IMG/VR virus record: IMGVR_UViG_3300029911_000002
Coordinates: 150,511-214,510 of that record
Reading direction: 5' to 3' (one strand)
DNA: 64,000 nucleotides
Source: a virus
Shown: one piece after another, positions 6,956 to 51,816 of the stretch
How positions within the stretch are numbered: the first letter of the stretch is position 1
Layout: each line of letters starts with the position of its first letter
Made by a program: the position numbers and the translations under genes
The notes under the pieces: model-generated
Told to the model about the DNA's origin: nothing
The model's database searches: none
Seen by the model: only the letters and a program-made list of their open reading frames with translations

Positions 6956-6975
6956 TAAAAATTAAATTATTAAAC

Positions 6976-33123: not shown

Positions 33124-34482
33124 ATGTCAACTGGAGTAATACTTCCAAATAATTCGTTAATAGCAGATTTGACCAGTAAATATTGGCTTTATTTTTCAGA
33201 TAATTTTGGAAGTATAAATGCTACACTTATTAATGATTCTAATGGACATCCAATAACAGGATATATATCTGGAAGAACCTCAATTTATTATGATTTTGAT
33301 TATTCTGGTAATACTCAAGAAGGTAGAATACCAAACACTGATGTAGATTTTACTGCTGTTGCCATTGGGCAAAATATCGCTAGATATTCTATAATTAAAG
33401 GTGTAATCACAAGTGGTTTAACAAATATAATTTTAACTTCGGATACAGATTGGAATTATTCTGGTAATACTCAAGGAACAAGTGGCACATCAGGAATAGA
33501 TGGAGAAAATGGTACATCAGGAGCTTCTGGTAGTGAAACTCTTGAACTTACAATTACTGGAGTTCAAGATGGTATAAATAAGAATTTTATATTATCTAGC
33601 GGAGTCAGTTATATCCACATGTTTTATGTTGATGGTCAATTACAAACATATAATAACGATTATTATGTTTCTGGATTAACTTTAACATTTATTAAAATAC
33701 CACCTAAAGAAAGTGATATTTTAAGATTATTCATCACACAGCATGGCGGTGTTTTTGGTACATCAGGAACAGATGGAACATCAGGAACAGATGGAACATC
33801 AGGAGCTTCTGGTAGTGAGTCTCTTGAAATTACAATTACTGGAATTCAAGATGGTATAAATAAGAATTTTATATCATCAAGTGGTATTAGTGAAAATCAT
33901 ATGTTTTATGTTGATGGTCAATTACAAACATATAATAACGATTATTATGTTTCTGGATTAACTTTAACATTTATTAAAAATCCTCCTAAAGAGAGTGATA
34001 TTTTAAGATTGTTTATTACTCAGCATGGCGGTGTTTTTGGTACATCAGGAACAAACGGTACAAGCGGATCATCAGGGTCATCAGGTAGTTCAGGGTCATC
34101 AGGTAGTTCAGGTTCATCAGGTAGTTCTGGAACAAATGGTACATCAGGTATAAATGGAGATATTATAAACGAAATTGATATTTCTGGAATTCAAGATGGA
34201 GTAAATAAAAATTTTATATTATCAAATGAAATTGTAAGTGAAAATCATATGTTTTATGTAGATGGACAATTACAAACATATAATAATGACTATTATATCT
34301 CTGGATTAACTTTAACATTTATTAAAATTCCGCCTAAATATAATTATATTTTAAGATTGTTTGGTAGTATAGGCACAAATTATCATAATGGAATTACTAT
34401 TAATCAAAATATTGTTGTTGATAATTATGGAACAATAAAAACATTAAATATTGTTAATGGTTTGATAATATCAATAACATAA
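33124..34482 (+). CDS. Collagen-like tail fibre protein
   Basis: 452 residues. After an N-terminal domain come Gly-x-x repeats (GTSGTSGIDGENGTSGASGS and two more tracts). The longest, encoded by 34039-34158, is a run of GTS/GSS triplets. A module of about 70 residues occurs three times: ITITGIQDGINKNFI, HMFYVDGQLQTYNNDYYVSG, LTLTFIK, PPKESDILRLF. Trimeric collagen-like shafts joining beta modules are usual in phage fibres. It precedes the 2152-residue fibre and may form part of the same fibre. Confidence 0.7.
   Translation: MSTGVILPNNSLIADLTSKYWLYFSDNFGSINATLINDSNGHPITGYISGRTSIYYDFDYSGNTQEGRIPNTDVDFTAVAIGQNIARYSIIKGVITSGLTNIILTSDTDWNYSGNTQGTSGTSGIDGENGTSGASGSETLELTITGVQDGINKNFILSSGVSYIHMFYVDGQLQTYNNDYYVSGLTLTFIKIPPKESDILRLFITQHGGVFGTSGTDGTSGTDGTSGASGSESLEITITGIQDGINKNFISSSGISENHMFYVDGQLQTYNNDYYVSGLTLTFIKNPPKESDILRLFITQHGGVFGTSGTNGTSGSSGSSGSSGSSGSSGSSGSSGTNGTSGINGDIINEIDISGIQDGVNKNFILSNEIVSENHMFYVDGQLQTYNNDYYISGLTLTFIKIPPKYNYILRLFGSIGTNYHNGITINQNIVVDNYGTIKTLNIVNGLIISIT
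34039..34158 (+). repeat. Collagen-like Gly-x-x coding repeat
   Basis: A low-complexity coding stretch of GGT/TCA/AGT-type codons encoding Gly-Ser-Ser and Gly-Thr-Ser triplets, ending at Gly-Ile-Asn-Gly. Confidence 0.85.
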
Positions 34483-34567: not shown

Positions 34568-37500
34568 ATGAGTACAAGATTAGATGCGAATGATAGATTA
34601 AAAGGATTAAGTTTTAAAAAACCTTGTATCGTTGCGACATTAGAAAATGTAAATTTAACAGGGTCAACTAATGTAATTGATGGAGTATCTTTAAATTTAA
34701 ATGATAGAATATTAGTCATAAATCAGATAGATCAGATAGATAATGGTATTTATATTGTTTCAAATGTTGGTACAGGTTCTGATGGCGTTTTATTACGAGC
34801 AAATGATTTTTCTACAAGTGATGATATATTTGCTGGAATTAACATTTATATTTTATCAGGAGATACATATAATGATAGTTATTTCATATTAAATACCGAA
34901 AATCCTATATTAGATATTACTCCGTTATTTTTCTCTAATAAAAAAATGTTAGATACTCAAAATGTAAGTAATAATCAAGTATTATTATATAATAATAATT
35001 CAATAATTGGTTATACAGGACTAACATATGATGGTAATACATTAGATATAAATGGTAATGTTAATATAACAGGTAATACAACAGTAATTGGAAATATTAT
35101 TTCAAATACAATATCTGTAACAGGAGGAACTTCAACTCAATTTTTAAAAGCTGATGGATCTATTGATTCAACATCATATACTGATTTTAATTTATTTACT
35201 GGTGAAACATTTGATAGAATAAGTGGTGATACATATTTGAATAATTTATTAACAGGTGAAACATTTGATAGATTATCAGGTGATACATTTTTAAATGAAT
35301 TATTAACAGGTGAAACATTTGATAGAATTTCAGGAGATACATTTTTAACTGAATTATTAACTGGTGAAACATTTGATAGAATTTCTGGAGACACAGTATT
35401 AAATGATTTAATTACAGGATTAACTTCAACAGTTAATAATAATTATAATTTATTAACAGGTGAAACATTTAATAGAATAAGTGGAGATACAGTATTAAAT
35501 GATTTAATTGAAGAGTTATCAATAAATGCTCAAAATCAAATGAATAATGAAATTAATAATAGAATTTCAGGAGATACATTATTGAATAATTTACTAACTG
35601 GTGAAACATTTGATAGAATAAGCGGAGACACTTTTTTAAATGAATTATTAACAGGTGAAACATTTGATAGAATAAGCGGAGACACAATATTAAATAATTT
35701 AATTACTGGATTGACATCAACAGTTACGGATAATTATAATTTATTAACAGGTGAAACATTTAATAGAATTTCAGGAGACACATTTTTAAATAATTTAATT
35801 ACAGGATTAACACAGAATATTATAAATAATTATGTACCTTATACTGGATCTACATCAAATATAGACTTAGGATATAATAATTTAACAGCTAGTTCAATTA
35901 TTAAATCTGGTGGTACATCTAATCAATTTTTAAAGGCTGATGGAACTATTGATATAACTACATATTCAAATACTGGTCATAGTCATTATCAATTATTTCA
36001 ACCAAATGGTACAACTCCTTTTGTCTATACAGATAATGGTGGGTCATTTCATATTGATGGAAATATTATTCAATCAGGATCAACATATGAAACTCATACA
36101 GAACAAATATACACTACTAAAGATTATATTTATTTGAGAAGTGGAGCAACTTCTGGATTACCTGATGGACAATATGCAGGATTTACAGCTAAATTATATG
36201 ACGGATCTAATGATGGTCAATTAGTCTTTGATAATAAAGGCTTTGCAAGAGTTGGAGACGTAGGTAGTTTATTGAAATTAGCAGCTATTCAAGAAACACC
36301 TACAGATACACAATTTACTTACTATGATGCTGCAACTTATTCATTAAAAACACGTGCTTTTTTAAGTGGTGATATTACAACGGCTTTAGGATTTACTCCT
36401 TATAACGCAACTAACCCATCTAATTATATAACAATTGGATCAGTTCCTGTTGTAGCTACAACAACTCCTTTAATAAATGGAATTGCTGCAATTGGAGCAA
36501 GTGGTAAATGGGCTGATGGAGCACATGTTCATCCAGTTGATACTTCAAGACAAGTTGCATTAAGCGGAACTGGATTTGTAAAAAGCACATCAGGAACTAT
36601 TAGTTATGACACTTCTACTTATATTCCAGTCACAGGAAATACAAATACAATAAACTTAGGTGTTAATAATTTAACAGTAGATACAAATACTCTGTTTGTT
36701 GATTCTGTTCATCACTATTTAGGTATTACTACAAATAATCCTAATGCGTCAGTTGATATTGGAGGTTTTGGTACACCTTCTGATTATGGAGGAGGAACTG
36801 GTACGGCTAAAGTTTTAATTGCTGATAACGCGACAGGGTCATCTGGTGTTCAAATGTATAATTCTAATTCAGGAACAGCCTCTGATTTTAGATTTGCCAT
36901 TTTTAATAATAATAAAAATGAATATATGGCATTTTCAACGCCAGCCGATACTAATACTAATACTTTATTTGGATTTGCAAGAAGTACATCTAATTATTTA
37001 TTTAATAATTTAAATGGAGTAGGTGGCACTCTTAGAAATTTAACTATTGGTACGGTTGGAAGTTCTGACCTTATATTTGGAACTAACAATGTAGAAAATT
37101 TAAGAATAAAATCTGGAGGTAATGTCGGGATTGGAACTACTACTCCAGGAACGTTATTAGAAATAAGTAACTCTGCAAATATATCTATTAATTCAATTTT
37201 AAGGATTAGAGACATTAATACTGGTGGTTCATATTTTGATATCGGTTCTGCTAATGGTAGTAGTGGATTATTCATTAATCAAGGCTCTACTAAGATAATG
37301 CAAATTAGAAGTAGTGGAAATGTAGGATTTGGAACTTCATCAACCCCTAACGCAAGATTTAATATTTATAAAAGTGGAATAATTGATTATTTCAATATTA
37401 CAAGTTCAGTTGATGGTGATGTGATGGTTATCTTAAATAATGGCAACGTCGGGATTGGAGCTACCACTCCAGACCAAAAATTATCAGTTTGGGGTGGTTC

Positions 37501-40500
37501 ACAAAATATTATTGATCCAACAACTTTAGGTTCTGAAAGCTTAACTAATGGTACGTTATCTGGTGGAACTTCTTGGACTGCAACAAATGATTGTACTTTA
37601 GTATCTAATAACGCAACTTGGACTTTTTCTGGTGGAACTGCTTCAACTCTTACACAAACGAATGCTAATTTAACAGTTGCAGGAGTAGGATATAGATGGT
37701 ATAAATTTGTTTATACAGTATCAGCTATTTCTGGAACTCCATCTGCATCAATAACAACATCTTTTGGCGGATCAACAACTTCTCTTACTATAACAGCTGG
37801 AGCACAAACTACTTATTTTAAAGCAGCTACTACACCTACTGATTTTGTTATTACTTCTACTTTGGTATCAGGACAGACATTCACATTGGGTACGTTTTCG
37901 TTAAAAGAAGTTCAAGGTGGAAATTTAATAACTGGTGGATTGTTAACTGGTGGAGGTACAACTGGTATTAAAGTTTTAGCAAATGGAAATGTTGGAATTG
38001 GAACAACTACTCCTGGACAATTACTTGAAGTAAATAATGGGCACATAAATGTTTTAAATACCAATTATGGACTTCTATTAGCTTCTAATCAAGCTCTAAC
38101 TAGGAATGGAGCAAAACTTGTACTTGCTAACTCAAGTGCATTTACTTCTATGGGGTTGAGTACCGTAGGAGTTGAAAGAATTTCTATTGATAGTTCAGGG
38201 AACGTAGGTATTGGAGTAACTCCAACGTCTATGCTTACTCAAAAATCTACAACCGCATTAGAATCTGCTACGTTAGGAACTGAATTAACAGCTTCTGGAG
38301 ATACTTGGGGATTAGCAACAACTAAAAGCATAACTGCTTTTGCAAATTATGGATCTACTGTTGCTGGAACAGTTGAAGTAACTTCAAATGCTCATGGATT
38401 TCCAGCTGGAACAACAACTAATGTTGTAATATCAGGAACTACTAATTATAATGGTACATACACAATAACATATATTGATGTTAATAACTTTTATATTACG
38501 GCAACTTGGGTATCGAACGATGCAACTGGAACTGCAACTCAAACTGGTTGGTCTGGAACTTATGCTGGTGGATACACACACTCAACTGGAAATACAACAG
38601 CATTAACTGATTCTACATTGGTTCCAGTGGTTGGTAATTTATACCAAATAACTTATACAGTAACAAATAGGACGACAGGAACATTTACGATTACATTCGG
38701 CGGAGTTACATCTTATACTTATTCAGCAACAGGCTCATATGGTCCTAAAGCTGCAACAGTAGGAACATTAACTATTGCTCCAACGACTGATTTTAATGGC
38801 ACAATAATACTTTCAATTAAATTAATTGCATCATATTCTCCTATTTATGTTATTCAAGATAGTTCTTCTGCTAATACATTAGAAATTCGTAGTTCTTTAA
38901 ATACTTCAGTAAATTTATTCATAGGTAAAAACTCTGGAAGATATAATACAACAGGTATTAATAATACTTCACTTGGATCTGGAGCGTTACCGATAAATTC
39001 AACTGGATTTAATAATGTTGCAATTGGTGGTAGTGCTATGCAAGCGAATACAGCTGGATTTTCTAATATCTCTATAGGTTTTAATTCCCTTTTAAGCAAT
39101 ACTGTCGGTTATGCCAATACATCAATTGGTAATGCAACTCTACAAAATAATTCTATTGGTTATTATAACACAGCAGTTGGTATAAGTGTTCTTGTCACTA
39201 ACACAGCTGGGTATTATAATACAGGCATTGGAGCAAGCGCGCTTAGTTCAAATTCTACTGGATATTATAACACTGCGATAGGAATTAATTCTATTAATTT
39301 AAATACTACTGGTTTTTATAATACTGCATTAGGTGGTAATTCTCTTAGTTCAAATTCAGTTGGATCATACAATACTGCTGTTGGCTATTCATCGATAAGT
39401 AATATTGTATCTTCATATAATACTGCTATTGGTTATATATCTGGTCGTTATATAACTGGAGGGGTAACAACTAATATCAATTCTTATAATTCTGTCTATA
39501 TTGGAGCAAATACAATGGCATCTGCTGATGGCAATTCAAATGAAATAGTAATTGGATATAACGCAACTGGTAATGGAAGTAACTCAGTAACATTAGGTAA
39601 TACATTAATTACTAAAACTATTTTACAGGGTAATACTGGTATTGGCGGATATACAACTCCTTTACATTTCTTAGATAATACTCAAACTCAGAATCAACGC
39701 ACTGTTTATGGATTAAACGTGGTGATGAATGCTACTAATCTTCAACAAGATATAGTATCTACAGGTAATGATGAACCACTTTTAAATCAATACTATGCCT
39801 GGAAATTTACCGCAAGTGCTGCAAACACAATGGGTTCGTTATCAGTTAGATTGAAGAAAATAGGTACTGTTACAAATACAACAGATTATATTAGACTTAA
39901 ATTATATTCAGATACAGGTACAGCCCCAAATGCTTTATTATACACTTCTGATCAGGTTAAAATGGGCACATTAACGACTTCTTATGTTGAATACTTGTTT
40001 GGTGGAGACTATACGATGGTTAATGGTACTTCATATTGGTTAGTAGTTGAAAGAAGTGCATCGGTAACAGGAGGAGGTTCAATTACAGTTGATAGAAATT
40101 CTAATTCTTTAAGTACGACAAATGTTGTAACTCCTGCGAGTGGAGATTGGACAATAAATACAGGTTTAGGAAGATATATTATTTATGGACAGACTCCAAG
40201 GGGTATTTATGTAACCTCTACAAATTATGTTGGAGTTTATGGAAGCTCTACAAATAGTTATGGAGTTCAAGGAATCTCTACAAATAGTGGTGGAGTTTAT
40301 GGAATCTCTACAAATAGTTATGGAGTTTACGGAAACTCTACAAATAGTACTGGAGTTAATGGAAACTCTACAAATAGTTATGGAGTTCAAGGAATCTCTA
40401 CAAATAGTGCTGGAGTTAATGGAAACTCTACAAATAATTATGGAGTTTATGGACAATCAAGTAGTTCTTATGGATTAGGCGGTATATCAACAACTGGAGT

Positions 40501-41026
40501 TGGATTTATTGGTATATCAACAAATTCATCTGGTGGAGCAATGTATATAGGTGATGGGGTAGATAAATTAACCCAAAACAATACTGGTTCTGTACTTATA
40601 ATGTCAAGACGTGTTGATGGTAACTCCACATATGCAGTAAGTGGTAATTTATTAAATATAACTGATAACCCAACCAACTGTACATCAGTTTCAGGAGCAT
40701 TAATTTCAGGTACAATAGTATCTACTGAAAGATTTAGAATTGATCCTCGTGTAGTTGATGGAGCGAGTGCAGTAGGAGCATTTACAGATACATCAAGTGC
40801 TTTAGCAAATGCAACAGCTAAGTTATTTTCATTCAGAAATAATGGGGTTGAAAAAGCGTATGTTGGAGCAACTGGTAGTTTAGTAGTTCAGGGAGTAATA
40901 ATGCCACAACAAGCAACTACTGCAGCAGCACCAGCATATGTTAAAGGTGGAATGTATTTCGATACTACCTTGAATAAGATGAGAATTGGTGGTGCAACAG
41001 GTTGGGAGACGATTACGAGCGTATAA
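34568..41026 (+). CDS. Giant tail fibre protein, 2152 aa
   Basis: The N-terminal 110 residues match a common fibre connector: GLSFKKPCIVATLENVNLTG, IDGVSLNLNDRILVINQID, NGIYIVSNVG, RANDF. Next (about 210-410) come eight or so 18-residue units of the LTGETFDRISGDTFLNEL type. Middle domains contain NVGIGTTTPG blocks typical of Bacteroidota fibre-like proteins. A YadA-head-like beta roll of about 23-residue repeats follows (NTAIGINS, NTSLGSGAL, TGFNNVAIGGSAM). Then there is a possible carbohydrate-binding sandwich (about 1740-1860), nine 10-residue repeats (GVYGSSTNSY type) and a C-terminal tip ending MRIGGATGWETITSV. It is the likely receptor-binding fibre. The Ser/Thr/Asn-rich repeats are candidate glycosylation sites. 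Confidence 0.85.
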   Translation: MSTRLDANDRLKGLSFKKPCIVATLENVNLTGSTNVIDGVSLNLNDRILVINQIDQIDNGIYIVSNVGTGSDGVLLRANDFSTSDDIFAGINIYILSGDTYNDSYFILNTENPILDITPLFFSNKKMLDTQNVSNNQVLLYNNNSIIGYTGLTYDGNTLDINGNVNITGNTTVIGNIISNTISVTGGTSTQFLKADGSIDSTSYTDFNLFTGETFDRISGDTYLNNLLTGETFDRLSGDTFLNELLTGETFDRISGDTFLTELLTGETFDRISGDTVLNDLITGLTSTVNNNYNLLTGETFNRISGDTVLNDLIEELSINAQNQMNNEINNRISGDTLLNNLLTGETFDRISGDTFLNELLTGETFDRISGDTILNNLITGLTSTVTDNYNLLTGETFNRISGDTFLNNLITGLTQNIINNYVPYTGSTSNIDLGYNNLTASSIIKSGGTSNQFLKADGTIDITTYSNTGHSHYQLFQPNGTTPFVYTDNGGSFHIDGNIIQSGSTYETHTEQIYTTKDYIYLRSGATSGLPDGQYAGFTAKLYDGSNDGQLVFDNKGFARVGDVGSLLKLAAIQETPTDTQFTYYDAATYSLKTRAFLSGDITTALGFTPYNATNPSNYITIGSVPVVATTTPLINGIAAIGASGKWADGAHVHPVDTSRQVALSGTGFVKSTSGTISYDTSTYIPVTGNTNTINLGVNNLTVDTNTLFVDSVHHYLGITTNNPNASVDIGGFGTPSDYGGGTGTAKVLIADNATGSSGVQMYNSNSGTASDFRFAIFNNNKNEYMAFSTPADTNTNTLFGFARSTSNYLFNNLNGVGGTLRNLTIGTVGSSDLIFGTNNVENLRIKSGGNVGIGTTTPGTLLEISNSANISINSILRIRDINTGGSYFDIGSANGSSGLFINQGSTKIMQIRSSGNVGFGTSSTPNARFNIYKSGIIDYFNITSSVDGDVMVILNNGNVGIGATTPDQKLSVWGGSQNIIDPTTLGSESLTNGTLSGGTSWTATNDCTLVSNNATWTFSGGTASTLTQTNANLTVAGVGYRWYKFVYTVSAISGTPSASITTSFGGSTTSLTITAGAQTTYFKAATTPTDFVITSTLVSGQTFTLGTFSLKEVQGGNLITGGLLTGGGTTGIKVLANGNVGIGTTTPGQLLEVNNGHINVLNTNYGLLLASNQALTRNGAKLVLANSSAFTSMGLSTVGVERISIDSSGNVGIGVTPTSMLTQKSTTALESATLGTELTASGDTWGLATTKSITAFANYGSTVAGTVEVTSNAHGFPAGTTTNVVISGTTNYNGTYTITYIDVNNFYITATWVSNDATGTATQTGWSGTYAGGYTHSTGNTTALTDSTLVPVVGNLYQITYTVTNRTTGTFTITFGGVTSYTYSATGSYGPKAATVGTLTIAPTTDFNGTIILSIKLIASYSPIYVIQDSSSANTLEIRSSLNTSVNLFIGKNSGRYNTTGINNTSLGSGALPINSTGFNNVAIGGSAMQANTAGFSNISIGFNSLLSNTVGYANTSIGNATLQNNSIGYYNTAVGISVLVTNTAGYYNTGIGASALSSNSTGYYNTAIGINSINLNTTGFYNTALGGNSLSSNSVGSYNTAVGYSSISNIVSSYNTAIGYISGRYITGGVTTNINSYNSVYIGANTMASADGNSNEIVIGYNATGNGSNSVTLGNTLITKTILQGNTGIGGYTTPLHFLDNTQTQNQRTVYGLNVVMNATNLQQDIVSTGNDEPLLNQYYAWKFTASAANTMGSLSVRLKKIGTVTNTTDYIRLKLYSDTGTAPNALLYTSDQVKMGTLTTSYVEYLFGGDYTMVNGTSYWLVVERSASVTGGGSITVDRNSNSLSTTNVVTPASGDWTINTGLGRYIIYGQTPRGIYVTSTNYVGVYGSSTNSYGVQGISTNSGGVYGISTNSYGVYGNSTNSTGVNGNSTNSYGVQGISTNSAGVNGNSTNNYGVYGQSSSSYGLGGISTTGVGFIGISTNSSGGAMYIGDGVDKLTQNNTGSVLIMSRRVDGNSTYAVSGNLLNITDNPTNCTSVSGALISGTIVSTERFRIDPRVVDGASAVGAFTDTSSALANATAKLFSFRNNGVEKAYVGATGSLVVQGVIMPQQATTAAAPAYVKGGMYFDTTLNKMRIGGATGWETITSV
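35191..35810 (+). repeat. 54-nt coding repeats (LTGETFDRISGDT units)
   Basis: Imperfect repeats, each encoding about 18 residues (LTGETFDRISGDTFLNEL), sometimes separated by ITGLTSTV-type spacers. Probably a repetitive trimeric shaft. Confidence 0.85.
40202..40471 (+). repeat. 30-nt coding repeats (GVYGSSTNSY units)
   Basis: Nine consecutive 30-nt units, strongly conserved at CTCTACAAATAGT and varying at two codons per unit. They encode 10-residue Gly/Ser/Thr/Asn-rich repeats. The frame is maintained, so copy number can change. Confidence 0.9.
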
Positions 41027-41550: not shown

Positions 41551-43332
41551 TTAATCTAATGATATATTATTAATAGATTTATATTTATTGATTAATGTTT
41601 CACGATTACTAAATCCTCTACTACGTGGACTAATAATAACAATTGGTGAACTTTGAGCAGCTTTATAAACTGAAATTTTCATTTTATTAACTGCAAAATT
41701 GACTTGCTCATCCCATTGTTTAATGTCATATTTATATACTTCATCCATTTTAGGAAAATAATCAATATTCAAAGATTTATTTTTATAATCTAAAATTAAA
41801 TCATCTCTTGTTTTTCTATCACGTATTAATGAAGCACATATACCACTTTGTACCCAATAATCAATTGGATCTTCATTTGCATCAGGTAATTCTGCAGCGG
41901 GTTTAAATTTACCATTATATAAATCATATGGTACTATTTCATCATTATATAATTCTTTATTAATATATTCAGATAATTCATATAATTCAACTTTAGTTAA
42001 ATCTCCAATAATAGCATGAACGCCAATACTTCCAATGTCATGAAAGGAAGACCAAGAAAGCACTATTTCTGTTTGATTGCCTGTTGAAACGATACCACTT
42101 TTAAATCTATGAGTATCTTCTAAACCTAATACAGTTCTTAATACTGCATGTATTGAAGCTTTACCCGTATCACTTAGTTTAGGCGCATTTTTCATATGTA
42201 CATCATCTACATTTAATATTTCATCAACTGTTGATTGAATAGGTTGCCAATATGTAATCATTCCTAATTTTTCATCTAATTGATTTACATAACTTTTAGA
42301 TTTAGTATTCAATGAAGATGGATTTGAAATGAATATAGTGTGTTCTTTGCCCATAGCACGATAAACCAATGCTGCTACAATAGACGAATCAAGTCCGCCA
42401 GATACATGAACCTGAGCATTTTCAATACCTGATAATTTAAAAAATTCTTTCTGCTCAAATATAATAGCTTCAGTTATTTCTTTATATTTACTATCATTAC
42501 TGCCTAATATTGGTTCACAATCTTTTAATCTGAATGTTTCAGTTTTTTCTTCAAATTTAGGAAGTTCTTTAACTAATCTTCCATAACTATTATATACAAG
42601 AGAAGCACCATCATAAATTATAATATTTTTAACTATATCACCGCAACCAACTGAATTTACTGAAATAACTGGAACCATATTATTTTTGGCAATTTTAGAA
42701 AATAAATTTTTTCTAATTTTTTGCTTTCCATAATAAAAATAAGATTGATTAGGTATAATCAAAATTTCAGCACCCATATCAACCATTTCTCGTGAAATAT
42801 CTCTACTATGATTCATAAACCAAGCATCTTCACAAATTGGTGTACCTATAATGGTTTTACCAATACTTGGTAAATTAACTTCGAACACTTTAGTTTCAGT
42901 TCCTTCTGTAAAATATTTTCTATCTTCATGATGGTCTGTATCAGCTAATAATTGTTTATCATATGTACGAATTCCATTATCATCAATTACAGCTACTGAA
43001 TTTTTTAAAATTGGAAATCCATTTCTATTTATACCATGAGATGATACAAATCCAATTACAATTATTCCACACAATCCTAATTCTTTTCTATATTCTTCAA
43101 TTTTTTTCAACCTTGAAATTTGGTCACGAATAAAATCCTCTCTATCCCAAAGAGAACCACAGCAATATCCACTAATAGCTGTTTCTGGAAACACTGATAT
43201 ATCTACATTATCATCATAACTAGCATGATTTTTATCCAACTTTAAACAATTTAAAATTTTTCTGGTATTACCGATTAAATCTCCTGTAACTGTATTAATT
43301 TGGTGTACTGAAATATTTGCATTTTCAATCAT
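41551..43332 (-). CDS. nadE: Glutamine-dependent NAD+ synthetase
   Basis: 593 residues from the ATG at 43332 (MIENANISVHQINTVTGDL); an upstream in-frame start lies on the promoter. The N-terminal nitrilase domain has the Glu-Lys-Cys triad in VFPETAISGY, YDKQLLAD and GTPICEDAW and makes ammonia from glutamine. The C-terminal synthetase domain has the ATP-pyrophosphatase loop VSGGLDSSIVAALVYRAMG, then IVSTGNQTEIVLS and LPDANEDPIDYW. It amidates nicotinic acid adenine dinucleotide to NAD+. Length fits the family. It has a Bacteroidota-type promoter. In a phage with several ADP-ribosyltransferase-like genes it may refill NAD, or counter NAD-depleting host defences. Confidence 0.92.
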   Translation of the reverse strand: MIENANISVHQINTVTGDLIGNTRKILNCLKLDKNHASYDDNVDISVFPETAISGYCCGSLWDREDFIRDQISRLKKIEEYRKELGLCGIIVIGFVSSHGINRNGFPILKNSVAVIDDNGIRTYDKQLLADTDHHEDRKYFTEGTETKVFEVNLPSIGKTIIGTPICEDAWFMNHSRDISREMVDMGAEILIIPNQSYFYYGKQKIRKNLFSKIAKNNMVPVISVNSVGCGDIVKNIIIYDGASLVYNSYGRLVKELPKFEEKTETFRLKDCEPILGSNDSKYKEITEAIIFEQKEFFKLSGIENAQVHVSGGLDSSIVAALVYRAMGKEHTIFISNPSSLNTKSKSYVNQLDEKLGMITYWQPIQSTVDEILNVDDVHMKNAPKLSDTGKASIHAVLRTVLGLEDTHRFKSGIVSTGNQTEIVLSWSSFHDIGSIGVHAIIGDLTKVELYELSEYINKELYNDEIVPYDLYNGKFKPAAELPDANEDPIDYWVQSGICASLIRDRKTRDDLILDYKNKSLNIDYFPKMDEVYKYDIKQWDEQVNFAVNKMKISVYKAAQSSPIVIISPRSRGFSNRETLINKYKSINNISLD

Positions 43333-43359
43333 AATATATAAATGTTTTAAATTTGAGTA

Positions 43360-43391
43360 CAAAGATACATATAACAATTGATATAAACAAA
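43360..43391 (-). promoter_or_regulatory. Bacteroidota-type promoter of nadE
   Basis: On the minus strand, TTTG (43388-43391), a 20-nt spacer, then TATCTTTG (43360-43367). This is the TTTG-N19-21-TAnnTTTG pattern of the Bacteroidota primary sigma factor, about 28 nt before the nadE ATG. It points to use of the host polymerase without phage factors, so the gene is probably early. Confidence 0.7.
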
Positions 43392-43831: not shown

Positions 43832-44755
43832 ATGATAATATATAAAACTACAAATCTCATTAATAATAAATTTTATATTGGGCAAGATTTTAATGATAAT
43901 CCTAAATATTATGGTTCTGGTAAATTAATTACATTTGCAATAAAAAAATATGGTAAAGAAAATTTTAAAAAAGAGATAATAGAATATTGTACTGATGAAA
44001 AACATATGGATGAAAGAGAAATATTTTGGATAAAAGAACTTAATGCAACAAATAAAAAAATAGCTTATAATATTTGTGAAGGAGGAAAAACATATAGAAC
44101 AATGAAAGGTGAAAATCATCCATTTTTTGGTAAACATCATACAGAAGAAACTAGAGCTATAATTAAAGAAAAAAGAAAACTTCAAAAAATGTCTAATTTT
44201 GAAAAAGAAAGACTTAGAAAATTATGGAAAACTAATGCTAATCCAGGCAAAAATAAATCAAATGAAACAATAGAAAAAATAAAAAATGCAGCAAAAGAAT
44301 TAGATAGATATGGGGAAAAATCTACTTTTTACGGTAAAACTCATTCAGAAGAAACTAAAAAACATTGGAGTGAAATAAGAAAAGGTAAAAATGTAGGTAT
44401 TAATAATCCTGCTGCAACTAGATATTATATTGAAACACCAGATAAAAAAGAATTAATATTTAATAGTAGAAAAGAAGTAATTGAATATATTGGATGTAGC
44501 ATGGGATTTTTTACATTAAAAAAATATAAAGGATATAAACTTATAAGAAAAGAAATAATAAATAAAAAAGAAATAATAATAAATAAAGAAGATGATGAAT
44601 ATTATATTTATACTATTGAATCTCCTAATGGAGAAATATTAATATTTAATAAAAAAAGTGAAATAATAAAAAAATTAGATTGCAGTTTATATTTCTTTAT
44701 ATGTAAACATTTTTTGGGATATAAACTTATAAAAAGAGAAAAAAATAATTTATAA
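43832..44755 (+). CDS. GIY-YIG homing endonuclease with NUMOD3 motifs
   Basis: 307 residues. The catalytic GIY-YIG core is IIYKTTNLINNKFYIGQDF (residues 2-20), with YYGSGKLI, a KEIIEYC strand and DEREIFWIKELN, the last including the Glu ligand. DNA-binding NUMOD3 modules follow (GENHPFFGKHHTEETRAIIK; STFYGKTHSEETKKHW). The C-terminus has two copies of a further motif (ETPDKKELIFNSRKEVIEYI and SPNGEILIFNKKSEIIKKL). Its stop overlaps the glycosyltransferase start (TAATG). Likely a mobile, free-standing endonuclease. Confidence 0.85.
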   Translation: MIIYKTTNLINNKFYIGQDFNDNPKYYGSGKLITFAIKKYGKENFKKEIIEYCTDEKHMDEREIFWIKELNATNKKIAYNICEGGKTYRTMKGENHPFFGKHHTEETRAIIKEKRKLQKMSNFEKERLRKLWKTNANPGKNKSNETIEKIKNAAKELDRYGEKSTFYGKTHSEETKKHWSEIRKGKNVGINNPAATRYYIETPDKKELIFNSRKEVIEYIGCSMGFFTLKKYKGYKLIRKEIINKKEIIINKEDDEYYIYTIESPNGEILIFNKKSEIIKKLDCSLYFFICKHFLGYKLIKREKNNL

Positions 44756-47226
44756 TGAGAATATTGTTAATTTTACCTCATGTTAGTACTGGAGGAATGC
44801 CTTCTGTATCTTTAAAAAGAGTTGAATATTTAATAAAAAATAATGAAGTATATCTTATAGAATATAGACAAATTTCTTGGAGTTTTGTTGTACAACGAAA
44901 TAAAATAATAGAATTATTAGGAGATAGATTTATATCATTAGGTAATACATGGGATAAAGATGAAAGTGTTAGAGACAAATTTCAAGAAATAATTGAAAAT
45001 ATTAATCCTGATATCATTCATATGGAAGAAATTCCTGAACTGTTCAATGATGGAATGAGGGAAGAACATTCAGATTGGTTATATAGGAATGATAGACCAT
45101 ATAAAATTATTGAAACTACTCACACATCAACATTTGATGTAAATAAGAAAGTATATTTTCCTGATAAATTTTTATTCGTATCTAAATTTTCACAATTACA
45201 ATATGAAAAATTTAATATTCCTTCATCTGTGGTTGAATATCCAATGAATAAATTAAAAAAAAATCAAGGATATGCTATTAAAAAATTAAATTTTGATCCT
45301 GAATATTTTCATGTTTTGAATGTTGGATTATTCACATCAGGTAAAAATCAAGGTTATGTATTTGAAATAGCAAGAAGATTAGAAAAATATAAAATACAAT
45401 TTCATTTTGTAGGTAATCAAGCTGATAATTTTTCAGATTATTGGAAACCTTTATTAGAAAATAAACCAAATAATTGTATTATTCACGGTGAAAGAGATGA
45501 TATTGATTTATTTTATCAGGCATCAAATTTACTTATACATTCATCTATAAATGAATTAAATCCGTTAGCAGTAAAAGAAGCAACATCTTATGATTTACCG
45601 ATATATTTAAATAATCTTAGTACATATTTAGATACTTATGATTCTTATAAAAATATAAAATATCTTACAAGAGATGTTGATAAAGATGCTAAAAGAATAT
45701 TAGATAATTTTAATATAAAACTTATAGATGATAATGATACATTTGAAGATATATTAATAAATGAATATAAAGAAGTACTTAATATAGATAAAATAAAACA
45801 AAATTCAATTGATGCTCAATATGAATATAATATTGATTTTATTGAAGGTGCAAAAGTTGAAATTCTTGGTACAAAAAAATCAGAATTTTATGTTGAGATA
45901 TTAGATAAAAATACCAAAGAAGTCATATATAAAAATTTAATAAATAATAATAATTGGTGTAAAACAAATAATGAATGTTATAAAGAATATAAAATTAACA
46001 TTTATCATAATAATAAATTAGTAATTAATCATAATTTTGATTTAACAAATAGAAATGTATTAATAACATTAGAAAGTAAATCTATTGGTGATACATTAGC
46101 GTGGTTTCCATATATAGAAGAATTTAGAAAAATTCATAACTGTAAAGTTTATTGTTCTACATTTTGGAATAATTGGTTTATAAATCAATATCCTGAAATT
46201 ACATTTTTAAAGCCTGGTCAATCAAATATTAACGATTTATATGCTAAATATAAAATAGGATGGTATTTACCATTTGATAGAAATAAAAATCCAATTGATT
46301 ATAAAACTATTCCTTTGCAAAAAACAGCATGTGATATTCTTGGATTAGAATATAAAGAAATTGTACCAAAAATTGAAATTCCTGAAGGAGTTAGACCAAT
46401 TAAAGAAAAATATGTTTGTATTGGACAATTTTCTACTGCGAATGCAAAACACTGGCATTACCCTTGTAAAGATAGCAACAAAGGCTGGCAAATTTTAGTT
46501 GATTGGCTTAATGTTCAAGGTTATAAAGTTATGGTAATAAGTAAGCAGTCAACTACTCTTAAAAATATAATAAATAAAACTGGTGATTTTCCTATTGAGC
46601 AAAGAATAAATGAATTAAAATGGTGTGAATTTTATATTGGAGTTGGTTCTGGATTAAGTTGGTTAGCTTGGGCTGTTGGTAAAAAAGTAGTAATGATGTC
46701 TGGATTTTCTAATCCTTTCTGTGAATTTAAATCTAATAATATAAATGTTCATAATTTTAATGTTTGTAATGGTTGTTTTAATACTCATCAATTTGATCCA
46801 GGAGATTGGAATTGGTGTCCTATACATAAAAATACAGATAATCAATTTGAATGTTCAACTAATATTACGCCAAAAATGATAACTGATAAAATTATTAAAT
46901 GTAAACTCATTGAAAATCCTAATAATTTCAATTTTACTAAATATAATTTAAAATATAATTTAAATAAAAATGATATTTTCTTTAAATATGATAAAAATGA
47001 AAATAAATTTACAATAATTTATAAAGGTGATGATGTTGAACCTTTAAATATTGATATTAGAGATTATAATTCAGATATGATATATTATACATTATCTGAC
47101 ACATCATTAAGTAAAAATAATATAATTTGGAGTATACCAGAGAAAAAAATGTTTGAAGAAACAAATAAGTTACTTATAGTATTTTACGAAAAAAATAAAA
47201 TATTAGAATTGCAATATGATATTTAA
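44755..47226 (+). CDS. Two-domain glycosyltransferase: GT4 fused to autotransporter-type heptosyltransferase (BAHT/TibC-like)
   Basis: 823 residues. Residues 1-340 are a GT4-like domain: ILLILPHVSTGGMPSVSLKR, LNVGLFTSGKNQGYVFEIAR and HSSINELNPLAVKEA. Residues about 430-720 match bacterial autotransporter heptosyltransferases: SIGDTLAWFPYIEEFR, KIGWYLPFDRN, CIGQFSTANAKHWHYP, YIGVGSGLSWLAWAVG, then a cysteine cluster CNGC, DWNWCPIHKN and FECSTNITP. In TibC-type enzymes four such cysteines bind iron. Those enzymes O-glycosylate Ser in beta-helical repeats. The C-terminal about 100 residues are beta-rich. Neighbouring fibres with Ser/Thr repeats are plausible substrates; the donor sugar is unknown. 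Confidence 0.85.
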   Translation: MRILLILPHVSTGGMPSVSLKRVEYLIKNNEVYLIEYRQISWSFVVQRNKIIELLGDRFISLGNTWDKDESVRDKFQEIIENINPDIIHMEEIPELFNDGMREEHSDWLYRNDRPYKIIETTHTSTFDVNKKVYFPDKFLFVSKFSQLQYEKFNIPSSVVEYPMNKLKKNQGYAIKKLNFDPEYFHVLNVGLFTSGKNQGYVFEIARRLEKYKIQFHFVGNQADNFSDYWKPLLENKPNNCIIHGERDDIDLFYQASNLLIHSSINELNPLAVKEATSYDLPIYLNNLSTYLDTYDSYKNIKYLTRDVDKDAKRILDNFNIKLIDDNDTFEDILINEYKEVLNIDKIKQNSIDAQYEYNIDFIEGAKVEILGTKKSEFYVEILDKNTKEVIYKNLINNNNWCKTNNECYKEYKINIYHNNKLVINHNFDLTNRNVLITLESKSIGDTLAWFPYIEEFRKIHNCKVYCSTFWNNWFINQYPEITFLKPGQSNINDLYAKYKIGWYLPFDRNKNPIDYKTIPLQKTACDILGLEYKEIVPKIEIPEGVRPIKEKYVCIGQFSTANAKHWHYPCKDSNKGWQILVDWLNVQGYKVMVISKQSTTLKNIINKTGDFPIEQRINELKWCEFYIGVGSGLSWLAWAVGKKVVMMSGFSNPFCEFKSNNINVHNFNVCNGCFNTHQFDPGDWNWCPIHKNTDNQFECSTNITPKMITDKIIKCKLIENPNNFNFTKYNLKYNLNKNDIFFKYDKNENKFTIIYKGDDVEPLNIDIRDYNSDMIYYTLSDTSLSKNNIIWSIPEKKMFEETNKLLIVFYEKNKILELQYDI

Positions 47227-47261: not shown

Positions 47262-49292
47262 ATGAGCTATATAAAAATTCAAAAAATACTTAAAGAAGAA
47301 GTTGAAACACCTGAAGAAGGTTATATTTATTTTGGTTATGATGATTCAACAGTTGGTAGTGGAGTAACTAGTGGAGTAACTGGTGGATTTTGGATGAAAG
47401 ATGATACTGGTAGCGGAGCAACATATTTATTTGCAGGTTATTCAAATGCGCCAAATATTATATCTTTTAATCCAACATCATCAGCATTTAATGGTGATAC
47501 TATAACAATATATGGTATAAATTTCTTTGGTGCTGTAGTGGCGTCATTTAGTGGAATTACAGGAATAACAACAGTAGTGAATTCAAATCAATTGACCGTA
47601 ATAATACCTAATTTACCTAATTATGATAATGAAGTTGATGTTGTAATAACTTCTTCATTAGGAACAGGAACTTCCGTAAAATATAAAGTATATCAGCAAA
47701 TAAATAAGCCTGTAATTACTAGTTATCCATCAATTGCTAATATAAATTCTACAATAACTATTAATGGATTATATTTTATCGCTGGACAAACTTCTGTATA
47801 TTTTAATCCAGCATCTACTATTTCAACAACAACGGTAATTAATTCAACTACGTTAACAGCAGTAGTTCCAATAATTCCAACTGGATCAACACAATTTTAT
47901 ATTCAAACAACTTTTGGACAAAGTTTACTTTCAAATATTAATATTAATGGCGGAACAATTCCAATAGTTACTAATTTTTACCCAACATATGCAAATTTAG
48001 GAGATACTATTAATATATTTGGCGAAAATTTTATAGATATTAATAATTTATTAGTACGTTTTGGACCTAATCAATCATCAAATATTAGCATAATAAATTC
48101 AGGACAGTTAACAGTTACAATATCAGGAGATACTCCAATTGGAGATACATTAATTAGCGTTAATGATATGACATTTTCAGGATTTACAGTTTGTGGCTCT
48201 ACTTCTACATTAATTCCAACAGTATCAAGTATATCGACATCAGTATATCCAGGGAATACTGTAATTATGACAGGGACAAATTTAGATTCACCATTAACAG
48301 TTACTTTTAGTAGCGTTATATGTAATACTTTACCTATAGATTCAGGTAGTTGCTATATTTATATAGGAACTAATGTAATTCCAGGTATAAATACAGTAAT
48401 TGTTATAAATAAATATGGATCATCATTACCTTATTCTTATACAGTATTAAATCCTGGTAGTTTGACTATAACAAGTTTTAGTATTAATCATATGCAAAGA
48501 GGAAATAATTCAATTGGATTATATGGTAGTGGGTTTATTAATAGTCCATCAATGAGTGTTTATATTGGAAATGTATTATCAAGATTTTCTTATAATAATC
48601 AATCAGGATTAACTGTTCAAATATTAAATGCTTCATCAACAAGTGATTTAATTCCGACTGGACCAGTTGATATTAGAGTAGAAAGTATAAATTCAAGTTA
48701 TACATTAAATGGATTTACAGTTGATCCTAATACAGGTTTAAATCCACCAATAATTTCAAAAATAAGTCCTATATATGGTCAATATGATGATATTATTGAT
48801 ATCTATGGTACATATTTATCAGGAGGTACCATTAGTTTTGGAACTTCGTATCCAGGAACTTATGCAGAAACAACTACAATAGATGATACTCATTTAAGTG
48901 TTTATGTACCATCTGGATTTACAATAGATTCTAATGAAATTATAAATATTTATGCTACAACAATAGCTGGATCTTGTACATATTCTCCTTTTGAAATTTA
49001 TGTAGAAGCATCATCATCTCCAATAATAAATAAATTAGATAGTCCTGTAAATGTATCAGGAGGAACATTAATTACTATTCTTGGAAGTAATTTTGTTAAA
49101 TATTATACTGATGTTTATGTAAGTATAATTACAGGAAGTACAGTTCAATATTTAGTATTAGATTCTCAAAAATTTATATCTAGTACTGAAATACAAGGAA
49201 TTATACCTAATACTACATATATTGGACTTTCTATGATTAAAGTAGTAACCTCCGCTGGTGTTGATCAAGAAACAAATTTAAATTTTATATAA
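47262..49292 (+). CDS. IPT/TIG-repeat virion protein
   Basis: 676 residues. After an N-terminal 65-residue segment (MSYIKIQKILKEEVETPEEG; GFWMKDDTGSG) come seven IPT/TIG-type immunoglobulin-like domains. Each starts with a P-x-I-x-x-x-x-P-x-x-x-x-x-G-D-x-I-x-I-x-G-x-x-F pattern (PNIISFNPTSSAFNGDTITI; PVITSYPSIANINSTITING; PIVTNFYPTYANLGDTINIF; PIISKISPIYGQYDDIIDIY; PIINKLDSPVNVSGGTLITI). These are surface adhesion modules in phage tails and bacterial proteins. The gene is flanked by glycosyltransferases, so it is also a candidate glycosylation target. Confidence 0.8.
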   Translation: MSYIKIQKILKEEVETPEEGYIYFGYDDSTVGSGVTSGVTGGFWMKDDTGSGATYLFAGYSNAPNIISFNPTSSAFNGDTITIYGINFFGAVVASFSGITGITTVVNSNQLTVIIPNLPNYDNEVDVVITSSLGTGTSVKYKVYQQINKPVITSYPSIANINSTITINGLYFIAGQTSVYFNPASTISTTTVINSTTLTAVVPIIPTGSTQFYIQTTFGQSLLSNININGGTIPIVTNFYPTYANLGDTINIFGENFIDINNLLVRFGPNQSSNISIINSGQLTVTISGDTPIGDTLISVNDMTFSGFTVCGSTSTLIPTVSSISTSVYPGNTVIMTGTNLDSPLTVTFSSVICNTLPIDSGSCYIYIGTNVIPGINTVIVINKYGSSLPYSYTVLNPGSLTITSFSINHMQRGNNSIGLYGSGFINSPSMSVYIGNVLSRFSYNNQSGLTVQILNASSTSDLIPTGPVDIRVESINSSYTLNGFTVDPNTGLNPPIISKISPIYGQYDDIIDIYGTYLSGGTISFGTSYPGTYAETTTIDDTHLSVYVPSGFTIDSNEIINIYATTIAGSCTYSPFEIYVEASSSPIINKLDSPVNVSGGTLITILGSNFVKYYTDVYVSIITGSTVQYLVLDSQKFISSTEIQGIIPNTTYIGLSMIKVVTSAGVDQETNLNFI

Positions 49293-49328: not shown

Positions 49329-49384
49329 ATAAAATATAAACCTATTTATATATTTTGCCTACAATAAAAAAAACAAATAAATCA

Positions 49385-50296
49385 ATGAAAATATTAGTAG
49401 CAACTTTTGATCACAATTATTATTTATGGCAAGTTCTTGTACAAATAAATAATTTTATGAAATATGGATATGATGAAGACACTATTTATGTAGTATCATC
49501 TTCAAATCCTAGTCCAATTTTAAAATCATTAATGAATAATGAAAAAATTAAATCTAAATTTTTTATTTATAAAGATGAAAGAGTAAATCCAATATATCCA
49601 TCTTCATTAAGACCTCATATATTAGAAAAATTCTTTAATGAACATCCTGAATATAATGATGAAACTTTATTTTATTGTGATCCAGATATGGTTTTCACAA
49701 AAAAATTAGATTTCACTGAAATGATAAATGATAAAAAATGGCATTTAAGTGATACAAAATCGTATATTGATACAGTGTATATTAAAAGTAAAAGTGAACA
49801 ATTATTTAATGAGATGTGTGAAATATCTAAAGTAAAACCAGAAGATATTGTAGCAATTGATGAAAATGCAGGAGGAGCACAATATTTAATGAAAGGAATA
49901 AATTCTGATTATTGGAAAAAGGTGTATGATGATAGTGAAAATTTATATTCTCATATGAAAAAAACAGAAAGTATATATAATCCTGAACATCCTATTCAAT
50001 CATGGACATCTGATATGTGGGCAGTTCTATGGAATGCAGTTTATTATAATCATGAAGTTGAGATTAATAAAGAATTGGATTTTTGTTGGGCTACTGATTC
50101 AATAAATAGATGGAATGAAACTTATATTTTTCATAATGCAGGTATTGCTGGAAAAAGTGATACACATTTTAGTAAAATAGAATATCAAGTTTCTCCATTT
50201 AATAAAGAACTCAACGGTGATGATGATAATTGTACATATAATTATGTAAAAGAAATAAAAGAGACAGAAGAAAATTTCAAAGATATAATCTGGTAA
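49385..50296 (+). CDS. GT-A type glycosyltransferase
   Basis: 303 residues from the ATG at 49385 (MKILVATFDHNYYLWQVLVQ); a TTG at 49355 is less likely. It has a Rossmann-like start, and then ETLFYCDPDMVFTKKLDF, where D-P-D is a metal-binding D-x-D motif of GT-A folds. Later blocks are ENAGGAQYLMKGINSDYWKK, HPIQSWTSDMWAVLWNA and FHNAGIAG. It resembles phage and bacterial nucleotide-diphospho-sugar transferases of unknown specificity. It is downstream of a strong terminator and upstream of a GT6-like gene. Confidence 0.7.
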   Translation: MKILVATFDHNYYLWQVLVQINNFMKYGYDEDTIYVVSSSNPSPILKSLMNNEKIKSKFFIYKDERVNPIYPSSLRPHILEKFFNEHPEYNDETLFYCDPDMVFTKKLDFTEMINDKKWHLSDTKSYIDTVYIKSKSEQLFNEMCEISKVKPEDIVAIDENAGGAQYLMKGINSDYWKKVYDDSENLYSHMKKTESIYNPEHPIQSWTSDMWAVLWNAVYYNHEVEINKELDFCWATDSINRWNETYIFHNAGIAGKSDTHFSKIEYQVSPFNKELNGDDDNCTYNYVKEIKETEENFKDIIW

Positions 50297-50311: not shown

Positions 50312-51067
50312 ATGAATATAGGAATAGTTGTATTAGCTACAAATGCTTATTTTGTGTTAGGAATAAGATTTATTAAAAGATTTATGAAATTTTACAAAGG
50401 TGATAAAAATATCACATTCTATTTTTTCTCGGATAATGATCCAAAAAATTATATACCTGATAATATTGATGTTGAATATTTTCATGTGACTAATAGTAAT
50501 TGGGTAGATGGAACAAACTTAAAATTTACATCTATATTATCAATTAAAGATAAATTAAAAAGTGATTATCTATTTTATTTTGATGCTGATACTAATGTAA
50601 ATAAAGATTTTATTGAAGATTGGTTTATTGGAGATTTAGTTGGAGGCCAGCATTATGCAGATCAAGATTGGATGAAAAATGAAAAAGGATTTGATAGAAA
50701 TCCGTTATCAAAAGCATATGTACCATTTGATACTAAATTACATCAAATGTATTTTTATGGTGCTTTTTTTGGTGGTACATCTGAAAATATGATTGAATTT
50801 TGTAAAACTATGAGATATTATCAATTGGAAGATAAAAAAATACCATATGAACCTGGGGTAAACGATGAAAGTTACATTAATTGCTACTTACACTTTAATC
50901 CACCAACAAAAGTAGTTTTATGTAAAGACTTTGCTTTTGCTATTAGTGATAAAGGTGGAATAGGAGAAACTAGATATCCAGATCTAAATGTAGATGAACT
51001 TAAAAAAGAATTATTAATATATAAGAATGAATTTATTAATATTCAAAATAATAAACTAATAAACTAA
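50312..51067 (+). CDS. Family 6-like glycosyltransferase (GT6)
   Basis: 251 residues. Start MNIGIVVLATNAYFVLGIRF, then FIKRFMKFYKGDKNITFYFF, KLKSDYLFYFDADTNVNKDF and VGGQHYADQD. Later PFDTKLHQMYFYGAFFGGTS, IPYEPGVNDESYINCYLHF and KVVLCKDFAF follow. This order (DADTN in place of D-x-D/N-x-N, then the acceptor-binding YxGAFFGG and the H-D/N-E-S block) is typical of GT6 enzymes, the ABO/alpha-galactosyltransferase family, which also has members in Bacteroides and phages. It transfers a Gal/GalNAc-like sugar. Its 3' end is duplicated downstream of the following endonuclease. Confidence 0.75.
   Translation: MNIGIVVLATNAYFVLGIRFIKRFMKFYKGDKNITFYFFSDNDPKNYIPDNIDVEYFHVTNSNWVDGTNLKFTSILSIKDKLKSDYLFYFDADTNVNKDFIEDWFIGDLVGGQHYADQDWMKNEKGFDRNPLSKAYVPFDTKLHQMYFYGAFFGGTSENMIEFCKTMRYYQLEDKKIPYEPGVNDESYINCYLHFNPPTKVVLCKDFAFAISDKGGIGETRYPDLNVDELKKELLIYKNEFINIQNNKLIN
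51008..51060. repeat. 53-bp direct repeat, left copy (flanks a homing endonuclease)
   Basis: The last codons of the GT6-like gene, identical to 51862-51914. Three copies of TAAACTAA follow in the left copy. Confidence 0.95.
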
Positions 51068-51084
51068 TAAACTAATATATAATT

Positions 51085-51816
51085 ATGAACATAGGAATAT
51101 ATAAAATTATTAGTCCATCAGGAAAAATATATATCGGACAAAGTTGGGATTTAAAAAAAAGATTTAATAAATATAAAAATCTAAATTGTGAAAAACAAAG
51201 AAAATTATTTAATTCATTAGTTAAATATGGTTTTGAAAACCATATTGTAGAAATAATATGTGAATTTAATGATGATATTACACAAGATATATTAGATCAA
51301 AAAGAAATATATTATATTAATGAATATAAAAATAACGGATTTGATATGTTAAATTTGGCATCAGGTGGTAGTAGAGGAAAGCATAGTGAAGAATCAAAAG
51401 AAAAAATGAGAAATAGAAAAGGGGTATTGCATCCTTCTTATGGTAAAAAAAGAACTAAAGAATTTTGTGAAAAAATAAAAGGAGAAGGTAATGCGAATTT
51501 TGGTAATAAAGGAGAAAAAAATCCGAATTTTGGAAAAAAACAAACAATTGAAAGAATATTAAAAACTAGTGGAGAAAATAATTATTGGTATGGTAAAACA
51601 GGAAGTACTTCTCCGTTTTTTGGTATAAAACAAACCATTGAACAAATAGAAAAAAAATCCGGTAAAAATCACAAAAAATCAAAAAAAGTTATTGATACAT
51701 TAACTAATAAAATTTATGATACCATAGGACAAGCAGCAAAGGATTTAAATTTAACATATTCTACTTTGGTGACTAATATAAGATTAAATAAATCTAGATT
51801 GAAATATTATAAATAA
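51085..51816 (+). CDS. GIY-YIG homing endonuclease with NUMOD3/NUMOD1 motifs
   Basis: 243 residues. GIY-YIG core MNIGIYKIISPSGKIYIGQS with R in DLKKRFNKY and Glu in LDQKEIYYINEY. Several NUMOD3 repeats follow (GKHSEESKEKMRNRKG; HPSYGKKRTKEF; NPNFGKKQTIERI; SPFFGIKQTIEQI). A C-terminal NUMOD1-like helix-turn-helix comes last (VIDTLTNKIYDTIGQAAKDL). It is bracketed by a 53-bp direct repeat made from the end of the GT6-like gene, suggesting how it arrived. Confidence 0.85.
   Translation: MNIGIYKIISPSGKIYIGQSWDLKKRFNKYKNLNCEKQRKLFNSLVKYGFENHIVEIICEFNDDITQDILDQKEIYYINEYKNNGFDMLNLASGGSRGKHSEESKEKMRNRKGVLHPSYGKKRTKEFCEKIKGEGNANFGNKGEKNPNFGKKQTIERILKTSGENNYWYGKTGSTSPFFGIKQTIEQIEKKSGKNHKKSKKVIDTLTNKIYDTIGQAAKDLNLTYSTLVTNIRLNKSRLKYYK

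Follow-up and report, generated by a model that had tools for sequence, protein, structure and literature searches.

A phage-encoded TibC/Aah-type glycosyltransferase fused to a GT4 domain and its candidate collagen-like Gly-X-Ser acceptors

Bacterial autotransporter heptosyltransferases (BAHTs) include TibC, in which Asp110, Lys230, Arg286, Trp305 and four iron-binding cysteines are essential by mutagenesis, Pro300 limits the enzyme to a D,D-heptose donor, and formation of the dodecamer requires a beta-hairpin thumb with a hydrophobic tip (Phe265/Val266) (PMC4358343). Among viruses, mimivirus glycosylates its own collagen with the hydroxylase/glycosyltransferases L230 and R699 (PMC9546862, PMC8968730), and mycobacteriophages encode glycosyltransferases that act on the capsid and tail tube of the virion, according to the accounts in PMC12619734 and PMC10877033 of Freeman et al. 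2023. Here we describe a BAHT fused to a GT4-type glycosyltransferase (GT) domain, encoded by an open reading frame (ORF) in a 64,000-base window of virus DNA (bases 150511-214510 of the 214,510-base record IMGVR_UViG_3300029911_000002; genes were found as six-frame ORFs). We propose, with a probability of roughly 0.6, that it belongs to a phage-encoded system for O-glycosylation, probably heptosylation, of serine in collagen-like virion fibres, in which the acceptor, the sugar, the order of addition and the role are all predicted.

The enzyme is identified by homology; its substrate and sugar we infer. Residues 354-713 match TIGR04414 (hepto_Aah_TibC; autotransporter strand-loop-strand O-heptosyltransferase) at 305.1 bits against a cutoff of 200 (6.6e-91), phmmer against the Protein Data Bank (PDB) matched TibC (4RAP/4RB4) over residues 360-713 (~5e-59), and TibC was the best PDB match in a Foldseek search with an AlphaFold (AF2) model of the entire ORF (pLDDT 89.5), with a TM score of 0.84 normalised to TibC. 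The ORF also matches two GT4-type families, PF00534 (residues 175-299; 41.3 bits, cutoff 26.4) and PF13692 (28.7 bits, cutoff 27). The Pfam TibC_1st match was sub-threshold (14 versus 27 bits), a PHROGs scan of the 823-residue protein matched no family, and a Pfam scan of it found no GT25/PLOD-type domain of the kind present in mimivirus-type collagen-modifying enzymes. A preliminary description of the window had read this ORF as a TibC/Aah-type heptosyltransferase fused to GT4, and both that identification and its coordinates proved exact; the signature motifs it named begin at residues 632 (SGLSWLAWAVG), 671 (CNGC), 687 (WCPIHKN) and 698 (FEC). In a tree of 107 BAHT domains with modest deep support, TibC grouped with Selenomonadales and Acetobacter enzymes (clade A), and all 66 phage enzymes grouped with those of Methylococcaceae and scattered metagenome-assembled genome lineages (clade B). 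The window enzyme is a clade B BAHT, an iron-finger GT-B O-glycosyltransferase that probably uses ADP-heptose.

The TibC residues Asp110, Lys230, Arg286 and Trp305 correspond to Asp446, Lys565, Arg617 and Trp636 of the window enzyme, and these catalytic or donor-site positions are widely kept among 66 non-redundant phage BAHTs (Asp in 66, Lys in 62, Arg in 61 and Trp in 66). The four-cysteine site that had been expected to bind iron is likewise intact (Table 1). A structure-prediction check had been suggested for both the iron site and the dodecamer interface, and at the level of residues only the former held up: the window clade has a thumb segment of 23 residues, compared with 32 in TibC and 34 in a sheath-type phage clade, and the deletion is also visible as a gap in the phmmer alignment to TibC. 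Because the catalytic and iron-binding residues are kept and the thumb is shortened, retention of the chemistry is well supported by sequence, whereas dodecamer formation is not.

Co-occurrence with repeat proteins appears to differentiate the acceptors of the two BAHT clades. Earlier reasoning had placed the modified serine in strand-loop-strand (SLS)-like protein, and in particular in 10-residue repeats of a neighbouring fibre, but neither substrate was borne out. The SLS repeat (TIGR04415) was not found in the window phage or in 12 related records (0/13), and among 19 whole bacterial genomes it was present in 8/10 of those with a clade A enzyme versus 0/9 with a clade B enzyme. What co-occurs across clade B instead is a Gly-X-Ser repeat: an array of this kind lies near the BAHT at 10/17 clade B bacterial loci and at 0/17 clade A loci (p=3e-4). 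A (G-T-S)n protein with a signal peptide is encoded 41-110 bp from the BAHT in Methylobacter luteus, Methylobacter sp. and Methylomicrobium, and the neighbours, where read, are apparently those of a chromosome and not of a phage (their sequences resemble Mfd, MiaB and glycolate oxidase). Since the partner proteins share the repeat but are otherwise unrelated, this pairing points to the Gly-X-Ser repeat as the acceptor.

Phage loci show the same association, with 'collagen-like' used here for a Gly-X-Y pattern plus a Pfam match. Upstream of the GT4/GT/BAHT cassette there is a large Ser/Thr-rich protein of Gly-X-Y triplets, with 35-49% Ser plus Thr in many loci. Ten or more consecutive triplets occurred in 27/35 BAHT-positive loci (those with at least 5 kb of upstream sequence), compared with 6/36 BAHT-negative controls sampled via the same tail-tube family (p=3e-7), and counting Ser-type arrays only (Ser at 0.45 or more of Y positions) gave 25/35 versus 1/36. 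Pooled X and Y positions in the positive loci were 46% Ser, 22% Thr and 1.4% Pro, and the Y position was 45-100% Ser in 27/29 arrays examined; in all BAHT-negative loci other than locus L204 it was mainly Thr, Gln or Lys. The phage arrays are compositionally distinct, since known bacterial collagens have 31.6% Thr at Y and 19% Pro at X (PMC8968730). When viral records were instead chosen solely by a G-T-S-G-T-S-G DNA pattern, 13/25 carried a BAHT, as opposed to 1/20 chosen by G-P-X-G-P-X-G-P-X-G (L232, which also has a Ser-type array) and 0/12 tube-matched controls, so the link is with Ser-type repeats and not with collagen as such. Such repeats can be very abundant or hidden: one strand of the 735-kb phage LR756501.1 carries 1439 overlapping matches to the pattern (Gly-[S/T]-[S/T])4, and at positions 1-2298 of L018 (PP395634.1) deposited minus-strand hypothetical genes overlie an open plus-strand (G-T/S-S)n frame. 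These repeats also leave their antisense frames open, so comparable collagens may be wrongly annotated in other records.

As a general idea, glycosylation of the fibres by the phage's own enzymes fits the genomic setting of the relatives, which is the tail module. Among 67 non-redundant viral BAHT loci, the commonest neighbours were a contractile tail sheath (downstream in 50/67, as one of the two genes that follow the BAHT in 49/67) and a tail tube (downstream in 48/67), assignments confirmed by Pfam on one representative locus. The common order in environmental phages is Ser/Thr-rich collagen-like giant, GT4, GT, BAHT, tail sheath, tail tube, where the GT is a second enzyme of ~315 residues and the larger ORF before it starts with a GT4 domain homologous to the N-terminal half of the window enzyme. 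GT4 and BAHT are fused in the window clade, the second GT and BAHT are fused in LR756501, and all are separate elsewhere; this recurrent fusion or adjacency suggests that the three act in one pathway. The second GT of the sheath-type phages was not found in the window phage record. The C-terminal ~245 residues of the ~885-residue GT4 ORF in sheath-type relatives (e.g., L052, 8252-8992) are GT25-like (PF01755, 19.5-24.9 bits, cutoff 24), and the GT-A enzymes matched by Foldseek included mimivirus R699 and human COLGALT1, a collagen galactosyltransferase; with a borderline Pfam match and a mediocre model (pLDDT 64), we treat GT25 as a lead and do not claim the assignment.

The 823-residue architecture recurs in IMG/VR relatives at 66-100% identity, and a profile scan of IMG/VR confirmed at least 558 BAHT relatives. 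Among 50,697 named phage records, only four carry a BAHT, namely Microcystis phage Mel-JY01 and three uncultured huge phages; Mel-JY01 is the only cultured phage found here with both a BAHT (ORF at 4750-8430) and a Ser-type collagen-like protein, a (G-T/S-S)n sequence with which its record opens. The presence of BAHTs in phages is itself not new, because UniProt already lists A0A6J5SVC1 as 'Glycosyltransferase Aah/TibC' (uncultured Caudovirales phage), along with A0A7S9XE01 of Virus NIOZ-UU157. Our search of openly licensed papers found no description of a phage BAHT, its function or its acceptor, and no link between collagen and a heptosyltransferase.

Heptose is favoured as the donor sugar, on the indirect basis of GmhA and HldE genes. 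The window phage has a GmhA-like sedoheptulose-7-phosphate isomerase ORF at record position 77.8 kb (202.4 bits, cutoff 209.45, with GmhA-like motifs visible), GmhA is over the cutoff in LR756504, and the HldE C-terminal domain is over the cutoff in two BAHT-bearing relatives. These genes lend indirect support to the predicted transfer of heptose to serine by the window enzyme. A complete ADP-heptose pathway in the window phage was considered and rejected, as the record yielded the GmhA-like gene only.

In the mechanism we propose, the BAHT would most likely act on the Y-position serine of Gly-[Thr/Ser]-Ser repeats while the fibres are made in the host cytoplasm. Its BAHT domain would add the first sugar, which the fused GT4 (the counterpart of the separate gene just upstream in other phages), the phrog_4417 protein and the GT6 enzyme might then extend or diversify. 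The two-sugar chain suggested in the preliminary description would be compatible with the GT4 fusion and with the enzymes encoded nearby. The outcome would be sugar-coated fibres built from nearly proline-free collagen-like repeats, in which the sugar may act as a stabiliser in place of hydroxyproline or proline, shield the fibre or tune adsorption. We extend this more tentatively to clade B as a whole, whose enzymes, in hundreds of environmental phages and some methylotrophs, could be collagen Ser-O-heptosyltransferases, with a sugar added in the cytoplasm replacing hydroxyproline as the stabiliser of (Gly-Thr/Ser-Ser)n.

Several observations weigh against glycosylation of collagen-like fibres. 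In the window phage, the Ser-type array is short, and ~10 kb separate it from the enzyme, including an unrelated NAD-synthase-like gene and the gene of a homing endonuclease. A BAHT occurs without a Ser-type array in LR756504 (636 kb) and in a 93.7-kb fragment (G004/L007), a BAHT is missing from roughly half of the Ser-type records, several of which are however fragments, and the flank of L042 carries a proline/Gln-type collagen. L204, with a Ser-type array and no BAHT, has instead a 2-oxoglutarate (2OG)-oxygenase-like ORF and a large ORF between collagen and sheath, the latter probably a glycosyltransferase, judged by its start. The p-values overstate independence because the phage loci are related to one another, and absences are weak evidence because IMG/VR contigs are fragments. 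As for heptose, the gmhA-like gene falls just below the cutoff, at a distance of 117 kb from the BAHT gene, and the window phage record yielded no HldE. The TibC Pro300 position is Gly in 63/66 phage BAHTs, the window enzyme included, so the donor may differ from that of TibC in stereochemistry and even in identity. Collagen-like genes at L042, L079, L094 and L204 have DUF6445 and GT2 proteins and a 2OG-Fe(II) oxygenase (PF13640, recognised in L204 only because the sequence is similar) encoded alongside, which suggests a branch of collagen hydroxylation in some sheath-type phages.

Table 1. Features of the glycosylation locus and of the fused enzyme (nucleotide positions refer to the window; aa, residues of the 823-aa ORF)
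Feature	Position	Strand	Details
Collagen-like protein	33124..34482	+	452 aa; Pfam Collagen 2e-9
Gly-X-Y stretches of the collagen-like protein	33475-33537, 33748-33819, 34030-34164	+	three stretches
Tail fibre	34568..41026	+	2152 aa; phrog_4636 tail spike 3e-20; alternative acceptor
Homing endonucleases	43832-44755 and 51085-51816		GIY-YIG/NUMOD; flank the glycosylation cassette
GT4-BAHT fusion ORF	44755..47226	+	823 aa; ATG start
GT4 domain	aa 1-341		AlphaFold model and Pfam
Linker	aa 342-354		low-confidence in model
TibC-like N-terminal beta-barrel	aa 357-427		
BAHT GT-B catalytic domain	aa 434-715		
Iron-finger segment (predicted iron binding)	46765..46854	+	Cys671/674/688/700; four Cys at these positions in 66/66 phage BAHTs
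Additional C-terminal beta-rich domain	aa 727-822		
IPT/TIG repeat protein	47262..49292	+	676 aa; PF01833 86 bits; alternative acceptor
phrog_4417 protein	49355..50296	+	kept in 5/5 clade relatives
GT6-like glycosyltransferase	50312..51067	+	PF03414 60 bits; phrog_3317 glycosyltransferase

Within the window, the most likely acceptor is a collagen-like protein that the preliminary description did not mention (Table 1). Ser occupies 61% of the Y positions in its 23 triplets (counted in runs of 8 or more), it holds the sole Ser-type array of the 214.5-kb record, and such arrays occur in 5/6 window-clade records, the 93.7-kb fragment being the exception. The main rival, in our view unlikely, is that virion proteins are indeed glycosylated, with the IPT/TIG protein or the 2152-residue fibre as the acceptor here. 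The TIG gene lies directly downstream of the BAHT in 5/5 clade relatives, the fibre is Ser/Thr-rich and encoded between the collagen-like gene and the enzyme, and both the shortness of the window array and the G004/L007 fragment are consistent with an acceptor other than collagen. Yet TIG and YadA-like proteins are not a common partner across clade B, whereas Gly-X-Ser is, even on non-homologous host proteins. The fibre, its TIG neighbour and the GT6-like ORF are all real, as had been described, and the fibre bears coiled-coil-like ISGDT..LLTGETFDR and YadA-like NTAIG repeats. The repeat stretch once given as GVYGSSTNSY also exists, but the exact motif occurs once, amid nine degenerate GVYGxSTNSx copies in ~100 residues, and with no clade-wide counterpart found we rejected it as a common acceptor.

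Two further glycosyltransferases had been placed beside the enzyme. The GT6-like one was confirmed by its family match and follows the BAHT in 3/5 clade relatives, but the supposed GT-A enzyme, the phrog_4417 ORF, matched no glycosyltransferase family and is a putative GT-A type enzyme by a motif-based guess. A PDB sequence search did not help with its identity, as the matches were TALE-repeat artefacts over 30 residues and were disregarded. Its homologue in Enterococcus phages adjoins the major tail protein gene, which suggests virion proteins as targets.

Alternatively, the cassette may modify host surface glycans such as lipopolysaccharide (LPS), for example in superinfection exclusion or receptor masking. 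Glycosyltransferases of pelagimyophage host-recognition islands have been interpreted in this way (PMC7029224), GT9 and GT25 include LPS enzymes, and GmhA and HldE also feed LPS heptose. We consider this quite unlikely, since TibC, the nearest enzyme to have been characterised, modifies protein and has the same iron finger and beta-barrel (PMC4358343), and neither a location between fibre and sheath genes nor a correlation with the collagen Y residue is expected of an LPS enzyme. It also appears very unlikely that BAHT and collagen merely hitch-hike together as shared cargo of variable fibre islands, with no enzyme-substrate relation. Most positive phage loci do fall in one tail-sheath clade, and fibre islands gather many genes, but proline-type collagens in comparable phage records come without a BAHT, and bacterial chromosomes show the pairing again, away from phage islands. 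The canonical role, dodecameric Ser heptosylation of SLS passengers, host autotransporters included, is highly improbable despite the TIGR04414 equivalog score and intact catalytic residues, given the absence of SLS repeats from the 13 phage records and the clade B genomes, the nine-residue shortening of the thumb hairpin in the window clade and the separation of that clade from TibC.

Other features of the window are noted here in their own right. The endonuclease ORF upstream of the enzyme overlaps its start codon by one base, and 41551-43377 (minus strand) encodes the glutamine-dependent NAD synthase-like protein (CN_hydrolase and NAD_synthase domains), homologues of which lie upstream of the BAHT in L006 and L011. 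In the window phage record (G000), KFN[L/I/M]-stop closes 58 ORFs between 33.6 and 210.3 kb, some three quarters of which start MK[Y/H][I/V/L]K.[F/Y]E (KFN-tagged examples in the window lie at about 5.1-6.1 kb, 13.6-13.9 kb, 22.2-22.5 kb and 59.8 kb). Many small proteins of G000 that are otherwise dissimilar thus carry the same two tags, KFN at the C-terminus and, at the N-terminus, one that recalls the capsid-targeting peptides of T4.

If glycosylation of collagen-like fibres is correct, a widespread unassigned phage gene family would gain a function, and the stability of long phage collagen-like fibres with almost no proline would be explained. It would also change the default view that fibre-island phage glycosyltransferases target LPS, provide a one-enzyme tool to sugar-coat collagen-mimetic materials and represent a phage-fibre protein-glycosylation system not previously described.

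The window enzyme resembles the TibC/Aah BAHTs (PMC4358343) in family, in its GT-B fold with N-terminal beta-barrel, in its catalytic Asp/Lys/Arg/Trp and in its four-Cys iron finger, but differs in belonging to a separate clade, in its GT4 fusion and extra C-terminal domain, in its phage tail-module setting, in having no SLS substrate, in its shortened thumb hairpin and in the replacement of Pro300 by Gly. The phage homologues listed in UniProt likewise contain a TibC-like domain in phages, with no function, acceptor or collagen link found for them in the literature searched. Phage-encoded virion glycosylation is shared with the mycobacteriophages, but the acceptors in those accounts are the C-termini of capsid and tail-tube proteins, whereas those predicted here are Gly-X-Ser fibre repeats modified by another enzyme family. 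Mimivirus is similar in that a virus encodes both collagen-like proteins and (by prediction, in our case) the enzymes that glycosylate them; it differs in using hydroxylysine, unrelated enzymes and a eukaryotic host, as opposed to Ser, the BAHT fold and a prokaryotic host. Sugars on collagen triplets without hydroxyproline are also described for Bacillus BclA (in the account of PMC8968730) and for vent-worm cuticle collagen, in which glycosylated Thr can stand in for hydroxyproline in the triple helix (Mann 1996, as cited in PMC6953826). In those accounts the triplets contain Thr and/or Pro, while in the phage repeats the Y residue is Ser and Pro makes up ~1%.

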